Shown: piece by piece, positions 30,698-35,908 of the stretch
Numbering within the stretch: position 1 is the first letter of the stretch
How the letters are laid out: every line of letters starts with the position of its first letter
NCBI GenBank assembly: GCA_951812735.1
Contig: OX638332.1
Span: 206,508-270,507, forward strand
Direction of reading: 5' to 3'
Length of the DNA: 64,000 nucleotides
Origin: Candidatus Dadabacteria bacterium
GTDB taxonomy: Bacteria > Desulfobacterota_D > UBA1144 > Nemesobacterales > Nemesobacteraceae
Program-made: the position numbers and the translations under genes
Notes under the pieces: generated by a model
Seen by the model: the letters and a program-made list of their open reading frames with translations, nothing else
What the model was told of the DNA's origin: nothing
The model's database searches: none

Positions 30698-31402
30698 CTA
30701 TAAACTACCCGTGGACGGAACTATATCAATTTCATCTATATTCGCTTCAGAGGGCTGATTTATGACTGAGAGAACAGTCTTTGCCGTAACTTCAGGAGAC
30801 ATCATCTTTGTCTTATCCCATTTTCCGCCAAGAGAATCCCAGATGTCCGTTCTTGTCGGACCCGGCAGGATGGCGGACACTTTTATCCCCTTGTTTCTTA
30901 ACTCTTCTCTAAGTGAATTGGTAAAGCCCAAAACGGCAAACTTCGAAGCGCAGTAGGCGGCCCATCCGGGAAAACCCTTTTTAGAAGCGTTCGAACCGAT
31001 GTTCACGATATGGCTTCCCCCGGACATAAGTGGAAGCGCGTGTTTCACCATGAGAAAGGTTCCTCTCGCGTTTACGGACATCATCTCATCCCACTGCTCG
31101 GTGTCGGTTTCCTCTACCGGACCCGTGTAAACGACGCCCGCATTGTTAATCAGCACATCAATTTTTCCTTTTTCTTCGCCGACACTCGAGATAAATTTTC
31201 TGATTTCCTCCTCGGCCGATATATCGATCGAGGAAGCCATGAATTTTCCGGTAAAAGATGATAATTCGGCCTCAAGGGAAGCTACGCTCTCTTGGCTTTT
31301 TGAACAAAGCGCCGTAAAAAACCCCGCCTCAAGCAGCTCAACTGCAATGGCTCTTCCTATTCCTCTTGCCGCACCGGTTACTATCGCGATTTTCTCAGCC
31401 AT
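30698..31402 (-). CDS. SDR-family reductase, possible sepiapterin reductase-type enzyme
   Basis: 234 residues from the ATG at 31402, a classical SDR. The cofactor motif is TGAARGIG, NNAG is present, the catalytic Ser is in NIGSNAS and the catalytic Tyr and Lys are in YCASK. It overlaps the last codons of the PTPS paralogue by eight bases, so it is co-translated with two PTPS genes. Sepiapterin reductases, which follow PTPS in tetrahydrobiopterin synthesis, are also SDRs of this size, so a pterin substrate is a reasonable inference. A generic 3-oxoacyl or sugar reductase cannot be excluded. Confidence 0.85.
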   Translation of the reverse strand: MAEKIAIVTGAARGIGRAIAVELLEAGFFTALCSKSQESVASLEAELSSFTGKFMASSIDISAEEEIRKFISSVGEEKGKIDVLINNAGVVYTGPVEETDTEQWDEMMSVNARGTFLMVKHALPLMSGGSHIVNIGSNASKKGFPGWAAYCASKFAVLGFTNSLREELRNKGIKVSAILPGPTRTDIWDSLGGKWDKTKMMSPEVTAKTVLSVINQPSEANIDEIDIVPSTGSL

Positions 31403-31826
31403 CCTGTTTTTCCTCAAAATACTCAAAATAGCTTTTCGGATTTTCCCAAATCTTTATATTATTAAGCTTGCCCGGGATGATTCCCGTGAATTTCTGCCAC
31501 AGGTATTTTCCGATGTTCTCAACAGTTGATATGTTCTCTTGAAAGAAGGGAATATCCCTGTCTATCCACTTGTAGTTTAGCTCTTCGATTATGGGTGCCG
31601 CCCGTTTTTCAAAATCAGTACGGTTTATGACCATGCCCGTTTCATCGTCTATCTCCCCGCTTATAGCCACTTCCACAGTATAGTCGTGTCCGTGCCCCGC
31701 GGGATTCGCACACTTGTCAAATATGGCGAAGTTCTCTTCATCTGACAACCCCTCCATAAAAAGCCTGTGGCTTGCAGAGAATCTGAATACTCTTGTAAGA
31801 AGCACCTGCTCGTTTCTTTTCAGCAT
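31395..31826 (-). CDS. PTPS paralogue A: keeps the catalytic Cys, lacks the Asp-His pair
   Basis: 143 residues, very like animal 6-pyruvoyl-tetrahydropterin synthase along its whole length (FRFSASHRL, LSDEEN, GEIDDETGMVIN). Zinc ligands His20, His45 and His47 are present and the catalytic Cys39 is in KCANPAGHGH. The second half of the triad, normally LDHKNL, reads LNYKWI (Asn84-Tyr85), so the Asp and His are missing. The pterin-binding Glu in KIWEN is kept. It starts inside the end of paralogue B (7-base overlap ATGCTGA). It probably needs paralogue B for activity. Confidence 0.92.
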   Translation of the reverse strand: MLKRNEQVLLTRVFRFSASHRLFMEGLSDEENFAIFDKCANPAGHGHDYTVEVAISGEIDDETGMVINRTDFEKRAAPIIEELNYKWIDRDIPFFQENISTVENIGKYLWQKFTGIIPGKLNNIKIWENPKSYFEYFEEKQDG

Positions 31827-32254
31827 TTTTGGTAATCGACGAAAAGTTCGTCCGTTTCATATACCCTTATCTTGTGAAGACGGCAGTCATCCCTCTCAAG
31901 AATTTTCTCCTCGACCGCCTCCCAAAGAACCTTGGCTATGTTTTCCGTCGTTGGTATAAGATCCTGAAAGCGGGGATTATCCTCGTTCAGGTTCTTGTGG
32001 TCAAAATCAGCCAGAACCGATGAAACGATCTGCTTCAGGTCAAAGAGATTGATTATCATCCCTGTTTCCGGATTTATATCTCCCTCCACCGTAACTTCAA
32101 GCACGAAATTATGTCCGTGTCCGCCCGGCAGACTTGATTTGCCGTAAAATTCACGGTTTTTCTCCTCGCTCCAGTCCTTGTTCCAGTACCTGTGAGAGGC
32201 CGAGAATTCGACTTTTTTCGTTATGAGCTTTTTAAAAGACATAGATCCGATCAA
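31820..32254 (-). CDS. PTPS paralogue B: keeps the Asp-His pair, lacks the catalytic Cys
   Basis: 144 residues of the same family as its downstream neighbour (VEFSASHRY, GDINPETGMIINL, PTTENIA, RVYETDE). Zinc ligands His21, His46 and His48 are kept, as are Asp85-His86 in FDHKNLN and the pterin-binding Glu. The catalytic Cys is replaced by Ser40 (GKSSLPGGHGH). As a homo-oligomer it would lack the thiol. It lies 39 bases after nuoM on the same strand and overlaps paralogue A. In animal PTPS the Cys and the Asp-His come from adjacent subunits, so a mixed A/B hexamer would rebuild complete sites. Confidence 0.92.
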   Translation of the reverse strand: MIGSMSFKKLITKKVEFSASHRYWNKDWSEEKNREFYGKSSLPGGHGHNFVLEVTVEGDINPETGMIINLFDLKQIVSSVLADFDHKNLNEDNPRFQDLIPTTENIAKVLWEAVEEKILERDDCRLHKIRVYETDELFVDYQKC

Positions 32255-34057: not shown

Positions 34058-34990
34058 TTAAGAATAAGCTTTAGCTGTTATCTCCATTACCTCTACATTG
34101 CTCTGTTTTCCTACCGGTCCGGGAACCAATATGGCGAGATCGACCCCGGCTGCGAAATGCTCTTCAAGCTTTTTCTTGCAGTTATCCGGAGTGCCGGCAA
34201 GCGCCACCGAGTCTATCAGTTCATCGGTGAAAACTTCGGCCGGATTCGCTCCATCCTGCACTTGATCGATTATATCCCCGAAACCTATGTTTCTTATGAG
34301 TCTCTGGTAAAAAGGAAACCTGGCGTATGGACCGAGTCCTCTTTTGGCTGCGGCGATTGCCGCGGCTCCATCATCCGAGACAAAAGACGGAATGCCGTTT
34401 GTAATCGATATCGTCGAGGGATCCCTTTCCGCTCCCGCGGCGCCCGAAGCAACATGCTCTTTTAAGGTAGCTATATAGGCGGGAGGGCATAGATACGGCA
34501 TTATGCCGTCGGCAACCTCTCCGGCAAGCTCCGCTGCGGCTTTGGTAAGTCCCGCTATATAGACCGGGAGGTCCATTTCTCTTTTAAGAGAAAGCCTTGG
34601 AGACGTTCCGTCGGCAAACGCCCTCACTTCTCCGACATAGCTTCTCATCGCCTCAATCGGGTCTCCCATGTCTATATCGTATCTACCGTTAACTGGCTTA
34701 TGACTGACTCCGAGTCCGAGAACCATTCTTCCTCCAGTTATTTCCTGTATAGTCAGCGCCGTCGCGGTAGCAACTACGGGCTGGCGCATGTATATATTGG
34801 CTATCCATGTTCCAACGTTTACCCTCTCCGTGCACTCCGCGAACACCTGGGCGTTGGTTATAGCACTGTAAGGCGGCACTTCCGGAGAGAAAATACCGTC
34901 AAAGCCCGCTTCTTCCGTGATTTTTGCTAATGCCCTTAGATCACTTACACTGCAGCCCCAAACCGGCGAAGTTGTCGCAATTCTTCCCAT
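34058..34990 (-). CDS. LLM-class (luciferase-like) flavin-dependent oxidoreductase
   Basis: 310 residues of the bacterial luciferase-like TIM barrel. Typical features are the N-terminal EEAGFDGIFSPEVPPYS, RVNVGTWIANIYMRQPV near 90, LTIQEITGGRMVLGLGVSH near 118 and GLTKAAAELAGEVADG near 185. Such enzymes use FMN or F420; nothing here tells which, and substrates range widely. An AAGGAGG ribosome site precedes the ATG. It follows a radical SAM gene by 21 bases on the same strand, so the two are probably co-transcribed. Confidence 0.88.
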   Translation of the reverse strand: MGRIATTSPVWGCSVSDLRALAKITEEAGFDGIFSPEVPPYSAITNAQVFAECTERVNVGTWIANIYMRQPVVATATALTIQEITGGRMVLGLGVSHKPVNGRYDIDMGDPIEAMRSYVGEVRAFADGTSPRLSLKREMDLPVYIAGLTKAAAELAGEVADGIMPYLCPPAYIATLKEHVASGAAGAERDPSTISITNGIPSFVSDDGAAAIAAAKRGLGPYARFPFYQRLIRNIGFGDIIDQVQDGANPAEVFTDELIDSVALAGTPDNCKKKLEEHFAAGVDLAILVPGPVGKQSNVEVMEITAKAYS

Positions 34991-35011
34991 TTCATCCTCC
35001 TTGAGTTTTTT

Positions 35012-35908
35012 TCAGTACTGGTTTACCACGTCTCTGTAATAATCCGGACGAAGGAAAGCTTCGTCTCTGGTTTTTAACACTTCTCTTATCTCTTCAAGAA
35101 CTTTGTTTTTTTCCTCGGGGAATTTCGCCCTGACAGGAAGATAGTTTGATATGTGGTTTGAATAGAAATAGCCGTCGGAAAGCTCCGTATTCTCCACCAG
35201 GGTCTCAAGTTCCTCTATCATCTGGAATTTGTCCGGAAGTTCAAAGAGACCTTCCTGCCACTGTCCGTAAATCGGTGCCCCGGGACGAAGTTGAAGCGAA
35301 AGAGCTCCGACATATTCTGGGTCGCATTCCGTAAGAAGTTTTCCTGTAGCCGATGCATGTTCCCTGCTCCTGTCTTTCCCGCCGATGCCGAGGAGGACCA
35401 TGACAGAATTCATTATACCGGAAGCCTTAAGTTTTCTTGAGGCTTCAACGGTCTCGGCAAAATTTGCTCCCTTCTCTATTCTCTCGAGCACTACGTTGTC
35501 TCCGCTCTCAAAACCTATGTAGACCATCGTGAGGCCGTTTTCTCTAAGGCGTGTGAGGTCTTCAATTGATTTTCTGAGTATATCCCCCACGTTTGCGTAC
35601 ATGGTAATTCTCTCAATATCCGGAGCTTTTTCATGGAGATAGTCCATTATTTCCATAAGCTTTGCCGTGGAGAGCACAAGCGCGTTGCCGTCCGCTATGA
35701 AAACCCTCCGTTCAAGCGACCCATTGCGCTCGGCGGCATCGATAATCTCTTTTATCTCGCCCATAGGTCTCACCCTGAATTTCTGGGTTTCTTTCCTGTA
35801 CATTGCGCAATAGGTGCACTTGTTGTGAGAACAGCCGATGGTAGCTTGCAGAATAAAGCTTTTGTGTTCGCTTGGAGGACGGAAAAAAGGAGTTACGTAT
35901 TCATTCAT
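35012..35908 (-). CDS. Radical SAM protein (C-x4-C-x2-C type)
   Basis: 298 residues. The cluster motif near the N terminus is CSHNKCTYC (Cys26, Cys31, Cys34), with four rather than three residues after the first Cys. This spacing occurs in the coproporphyrinogen-oxidase-like/Elp3-related group. SAM-binding features FIADGNAL and GFESGDNVVL follow. The product is unknown. It begins without a Shine-Dalgarno site and is the first gene of a pair with the LLM oxidoreductase. Radical SAM proteins of this group are common in anaerobes and in lineages that make unusual cofactors. Confidence 0.85.
   Translation of the reverse strand: MNEYVTPFFRPPSEHKSFILQATIGCSHNKCTYCAMYRKETQKFRVRPMGEIKEIIDAAERNGSLERRVFIADGNALVLSTAKLMEIMDYLHEKAPDIERITMYANVGDILRKSIEDLTRLRENGLTMVYIGFESGDNVVLERIEKGANFAETVEASRKLKASGIMNSVMVLLGIGGKDRSREHASATGKLLTECDPEYVGALSLQLRPGAPIYGQWQEGLFELPDKFQMIEELETLVENTELSDGYFYSNHISNYLPVRAKFPEEKNKVLEEIREVLKTRDEAFLRPDYYRDVVNQY

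Follow-up and report, generated by a model that had tools for sequence, protein, structure and literature searches.

Complementary active-site losses in a tandem pair of PTPS/QueD-family genes from Candidatus Dadabacteria point to a two-subunit enzyme

Can two neighbouring genes of the 6-pyruvoyl-tetrahydropterin synthase (PTPS)/QueD superfamily (COG0720), each lacking a different part of the catalytic Cys/Asp/His triad, together encode one working enzyme? The question is raised by a pair of overlapping genes, here called B (the upstream copy) and A (the downstream copy), in the window analysed, which is the whole stretch of 64,000 nucleotides taken from a Candidatus Dadabacteria contig (OX638332.1). 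The triad of animal PTPS is called "an intersubunit catalytic triad motif" in the title of Burgisser et al. 1995 (cited in PMC7546909 and PMC2229834), and PTPS is a dimer of trimers with its sites between adjacent monomers (PMC7546909). As the triad is intersubunit, and as the Cys-less copy keeps Asp-His and the copy without Asp-His keeps its Cys, a single shared site formed by the Cys of A and the Asp-His of B would best fit the residues found at this locus.

Two overlapping genes and the residues they keep

Both predicted proteins match the Pfam PTPS profile PF01242 over nearly its full length, A with 97 bits and B with 120 bits against a curated cut-off of 22.4 bits, and among solved structures the closest relatives of both are human and rat PTPS. 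Aligned to rat PTPS, A reads KCANPAGHGHDY and LNYKW, and B reads KSSLPGGHGHNF and FDHKN. All three zinc-binding histidines and the Glu equivalent to the pterin-binding Glu133 of rat PTPS are present in A and in B, and no complete triad occurs within either polypeptide, A being without the Asp and the His and B without the Cys. The whole-length kinship with animal PTPS and the three histidines noted in the preliminary description are thus borne out by the Pfam matches and the alignment, as is its reading of A, by a residue table against rat PTPS. The two open reading frames lie on the minus strand where it had placed them, and both their coordinates and the overlapping bases were checked (Table 1). 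For B the residues were correctly named and the numbering was not. B begins at the ATG at 32242, since MSFKK is conserved from there throughout the genus and conservation does not extend upstream to the TTG at 32254; the TTG is probably not used, and B numbered from the ATG has Ser36 and Asp81-His82 rather than Ser40 and Asp85-His86. The start of A is two bases out of the reading frame of B. Translational coupling through the seven-base overlap is possible, and the overlapping start and stop codons would keep the synthesis of A and B matched.

Table 1. Positions in the window of the paired genes, their diagnostic codons and the adjoining reductase gene
Feature	Position	Strand	Description or basis
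Paralogue B (upstream copy, copy 1)	31820..32242	-	PTPS/QueD-family; PF01242; without catalytic Cys
Paralogue A (downstream copy, copy 2)	31395..31826	-	PTPS/QueD-family; PF01242; Cys39 kept
B, codon of Ser in place of Cys	32135-32137	-	alignment to rat PTPS
B, intact Asp-His	31997-32002	-	alignment to rat PTPS
A, catalytic Cys39 codon	31710-31712	-	alignment to rat PTPS
A, Asn84-Tyr85 replacing Asp-His	31572-31577	-	alignment to rat PTPS
B stop / A start overlap (7 bases, ATGCTGA)	31820..31826	-	sequence
SDR (short-chain dehydrogenase/reductase), third gene of the operon	30698..31402	-	ATG start, profile matches
A stop / SDR start overlap (8 bases)	31395..31402	-	sequence

A and B score under the cut-offs of the NCBIfam QueD and PTPS models, the QueD equivalog TIGR03367 giving 48 and 69 bits for the pair against a cut-off of 89. 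The fold is shared with QueD (E. coli 4ntk), as is the likely pathway role on genome evidence, but QueD is the product of one gene with a CxxxHGH motif, whereas the pair comprises two genes with a spacing of five residues. The motif CxxxxxHGH, which marks PTPS-II, the biopterin subfamily (PMC5041015), is matched by A (C-ANPAG-HGH) and not by B (S-SLPGG-HGH). Whole-length similarity, the zinc histidines and Glu, and this motif of A are shared with animal PTPS (PTPS-II; human 3i2b, rat 1b66); the animal enzyme, however, is a homohexamer encoded by one gene with a full triad in each chain, whereas here the Cys and the Asp-His are on separate proteins. PTPS-I, II and III differ in the reaction that they catalyse (PMC5041015). 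An identity as PTPS-III, the folate enzyme, was rejected, as B has no Glu of the ExxHGH type and the window genome has FolB.

Distribution and direction of the losses

PF01242 was searched across 148 genomes, and A and B are the sole copies in the window genome. Within the genus, which comprises 14 genomes, the adjacency of B and A is kept in 13, the fragmented genome G010 showing none, and the residues are identical in all 13 members with a detected pair (Cys and Asn-Tyr in A, Ser and Asp-His in B), so the split is not a chance event. Strong purifying selection acts on the two genes, the median dN/dS in the genus being 0.06 in B and 0.08 in A. Elsewhere in this order, the pairs show a gradation of states. 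Neither copy has lost a triad residue in the pairs of lineages f2, f4 and f5 and of the class-level f8. All f3 pairs lack the upstream Cys, and their downstream copy combines its Cys with Asp-His in some members and with Asp-Tyr or Glu-Tyr in others; in f7 and in the other genus of the window's family the upstream Cys is lost and the downstream copy has Asp-Tyr. Tyr is the usual replacement of the downstream His in this order, and in the window genus the Asp of A has been lost too (Asn84). These graded states indicate that the His of A is gone only where the Cys of B had already gone. To the question whether the two losses always occur together, the answer is yes for the genus and no for the order, where many f3 pairs join a B that has no Cys to an A whose triad is full. 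Such full-triad copies (A in f3, both copies in f2, f4, f5 and f8) had been named in advance as evidence against the predicted obligate heteromer; on our reading of the sequences, they mark the evolutionary path to the split and are not a refutation. In three f8 genomes (L071, L073 and L076) there is, besides the pair, a third, single PTPS with a full triad (LCNNxNYHGHNY, DHKN).

Using a profile of the upstream copies, tandem pairs and fusions were found in Acidobacteriota, Nitrospirota, Chloroflexota, Rokubacteria, Methylomirabilota, Planctomycetota, Bacillota and others. In a domain tree of few columns and many weak forks, 33 of 38 upstream copies cluster, and most downstream copies do likewise; this grouping by position across phyla suggests that the tandem arrangement is old. 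From 126 different pairs, 16 of Nitrospira type, in which the second domain is without zinc ligands, were excluded, leaving 110 to be counted. When the states are coded in the order upstream Cys, upstream Asp-His, downstream Cys, downstream Asp-His (1 = kept), these 110 pairs with intact zinc ligands fall into 52 of 1111, 25 of 0110, 14 of 0111, nine of 1110, and five each of 1011 and 0011. The reverse split, 1001, occurs in none of the 110, against 25 for 0110, and in none of them has the downstream Cys been lost, or the Asp-His been lost from both copies together. All 25 split pairs keep the upstream Asp-His, the downstream Cys and, in both copies, the three zinc histidines and the Glu. They come from this order, from the natural fusions L078 and L201, from Bryobacterales (L145 and L170) and from L085, and parsimony on the tree has the split arising about six times, the downstream Asp-His having been lost at least twice within this order. 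In the two fusions, domain 1 has no Cys and an intact Asp-His, and domain 2 has the Cys with Asp-Tyr or Asp-Phe. The upstream Cys is replaced by S, A, N, D or L in different lineages and the Asp-His by NY, DY, EY, DF, DQ, AH or RH, a variety that argues for decay rather than new chemistry. A Fisher test of Cys loss in B against Asp-His loss in A gives p = 2e-6, a value that ignores relatedness and is not taken as proof; a phylogeny-corrected independent-pairs test of upstream Cys loss against downstream Asp-His loss, with few informative pairs, was not significant.

The wider set of pairs has the gene order of the window, in many cases with folE and an SDR gene after the pair, whereas most of the pairs in Acidobacteriota, Chloroflexota, Nitrospirota and elsewhere have full triads in both copies or have lost one element, the full split being found in some lineages. 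The preliminary description knew of no such split in bacteria. The split recurs in other bacteria, and tandem or fused pairs are widespread; a literature search that left most subscription journals outside its reach turned up no account of a PTPS or QueD of heteromeric or tandem kind. In three relatives (L047:3728-4570, L070:3642-4475 and L074:3952-4779) a single in-frame stop codon, directly before the second ATG, separates the two copies, which are thus one mutation from fusion. A different outcome is seen in the 16 Nitrospira-type fusions, in which the first domain is complete and the second has no Cys and is without most or all zinc ligands (L124, L125, L128, L130, L131, L133, L139, L141, L158, L160, L169, L174, L176, L182, L184 and L186).

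A probable shared active site and its alternatives

We infer, with reasonable though not high confidence, that A and B are the subunits of one heteromeric enzyme of PTPS/QueD type with sites made from the Cys of A and the Asp-His of B, the complex, the sharing and the reaction all being read from sequence comparison. That complementary loss has led to a heteromeric site is well supported by the comparative sequence data: the split arose independently several times and always in one direction, it recurs in natural fusions, and the gene overlap is conserved. An old tandem duplication would have provided two PTPS copies, whose redundant half-sites may then have decayed stepwise, the Cys of B first and the His of A second, leaving each copy dependent on the other. 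Working sites would be expected only where the Cys of A faces the Asp-His of B, and interfaces pairing the Ser of B with the Asn-Tyr of A would be dead. The existence of full-triad A copies and of intact pairs in the same order implies that obligate sharing is a derived condition reached by steps, the Cys of B going first. Pairs with a Cys-less B and a full-triad A, and pairs that have lost only the downstream Asp-His, also indicate that not every lineage need depend on heteromerisation. As such, the obligate heteromer originally proposed gains from the recurrence, direction and fusions as regards its heteromeric site, and the word obligate applies only to derived lineages. Since the PTPS ring has three subunits, there is no simple way for A and B in a 1:1 ratio to alternate within it; the alternatives are an A3 ring stacked on a B3 ring, mixed rings or a four-membered ring.

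Confident AlphaFold2 models were obtained for the L078 fusion (pTM 0.89) and for a pair from a relative, translated across the one stop codon between its copies (pTM 0.90), the joint in the latter being artificial; since A is out of the frame of B in the window, the read-through was built from the relatives with one in-frame stop (L047, L070 and L074). In Foldseek searches both models match uricase over both modules, and the read-through model also matches GTP cyclohydrolase IB. The models suggest a single barrel in which the two copies are neighbours, an arrangement that the chain tether itself favours. Uricase and GTP cyclohydrolase IB likewise have two tandem T-fold modules, and the pair models align over both, but these enzymes catalyse other reactions, show 7-10% identity and carry both modules on one chain, not on the products of two genes as here. 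In bimodular QueF the motif and the catalytic residues lie in different halves.

It could instead be that A alone is a working homomer, with Tyr85 in the role of His or with a slower site that has no relay, and that B is a dead structural or regulatory subunit. This would agree with the retention of the downstream Cys in 110 of 110 pairs, with Tyr being the usual replacement in this order and with the rat PTPS relay His mutants, some of whose activity is reportedly left. A dead subunit, however, would have no reason to keep Asp-His, as B does in 25 of 25 split pairs, and no single new residue takes the place of His, since elsewhere it is F or Q, or the Asp is lost and the His kept; in the window genus the Asp is lost as well. 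We therefore regard a homomer of A as unlikely. Slightly less probable again is that the two proteins catalyse separate reactions, B as a Cys-independent Zn/Asp-His enzyme of lyase or aldolase-like type (compare PTPS-III, with Glu for Cys) and A as some other pterin enzyme. PTPS-I, II and III are known to differ in reaction, and queuosine together with a possible reduced pterin for the SDR might need two enzymes, but the Glu of PTPS-III is absent from B, the Cys position holds unrelated residues between lineages, the same split is present in natural fusions, and with FolB in the window genome there is no folate gap to fill. Relaxed selection, with the genus losing the pathway and both genes decaying, would accord with the disappearance of folE from the operon in this genus and is nonetheless very improbable, given FolE2 in 14 of 14 members, the retention of QueC, QueF and TGT, the conservation of all other active-site residues and a dN/dS of 0.06-0.08, which largely refutes it.

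If A and B do share their sites, the pairs form a natural series, from both copies intact, through one loss and two complementary losses, to fusion, which would show a homomer becoming an obligate heteromer by reciprocal half-site decay. Whether they represent a widespread and overlooked two-subunit or fused QueD/PTPS class, with the thiol and the Asp-His on separate subunits that came to depend on each other about six times, always through decay in this direction, and that assemble in a mixed ring necessarily different in symmetry from the classical homohexamer, we consider an evenly balanced question.

Pathway role and genomic neighbourhood

Gene co-occurrence indicates that the pair is probably QueD, the 6-carboxytetrahydropterin synthase of queuosine synthesis. 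This assignment is the most likely because A and B are the only PF01242 proteins of a genome in whose genus QueC, QueF and TGT are present, because the sister lineage f6 lacks the set together, and because distant genomes with a fusion have QueC. Two complete f6 genomes are without the pair, QueC, TGT and a genuine QueF, and have kept FolE and FolB; five distant genomes in which the fusion is the only PTPS-like gene all have QueC, that gene count resting on a profile search in four of them. An apparent wholesale loss of the queuosine pathway was seen in G019 and G023 of f6, a small-genome lineage of the same order. Aromatic amino-acid hydroxylase (PF00351) was found nowhere in this clade, and an explanation through a biopterin-dependent hydroxylase was set aside on that account. 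The likeness to animal PTPS thus holds for sequence and not for an animal-type biopterin function, for which QueD is the likelier substitute on gene co-occurrence. The substrate would most likely be 7,8-dihydroneopterin triphosphate from FolE2, and the product 6-carboxytetrahydropterin for queuosine. The PTPS-II motif of A and the unexplained SDR leave room for a reduced pterin, so that 6-pyruvoyl-tetrahydropterin might be an alternative or added product, made for the adjacent SDR. If the role as QueD is correct, the missing QueD step would be found in genomes annotated with only "PTPS"; caution is advisable, as annotators may label such genes inactive or as biopterin enzymes.

In other lineages too the pair is closely followed by a member of this SDR family, usually with folE in between, the order in relatives being PTPS1-PTPS2-folE-SDR. 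Sepiapterin reductase (2bd0), which is not the top PDB match, aligns with the SDR from end to end. No full match to folE (PF01227) was found in the 14 genomes of the genus, and FolE2 (PF02649) is present in all 14; GTP cyclohydrolase IA is replaced in the window genus by IB (FolE2), encoded elsewhere in the genome. In the sister genus folE lies between the pair and the SDR gene (L043:4608-5872), and in the window genus, with the SDR gene at 30698-31402 of the window, it is cleanly gone. Upstream of the pair, beyond nuoM, the window contains genes for a luciferase-like monooxygenase and a radical SAM protein (34058-35908), and the same two genes are directly upstream of the pair in a class-level relative (L067:4761-6634), which makes a conserved neighbourhood of these two genes possible.
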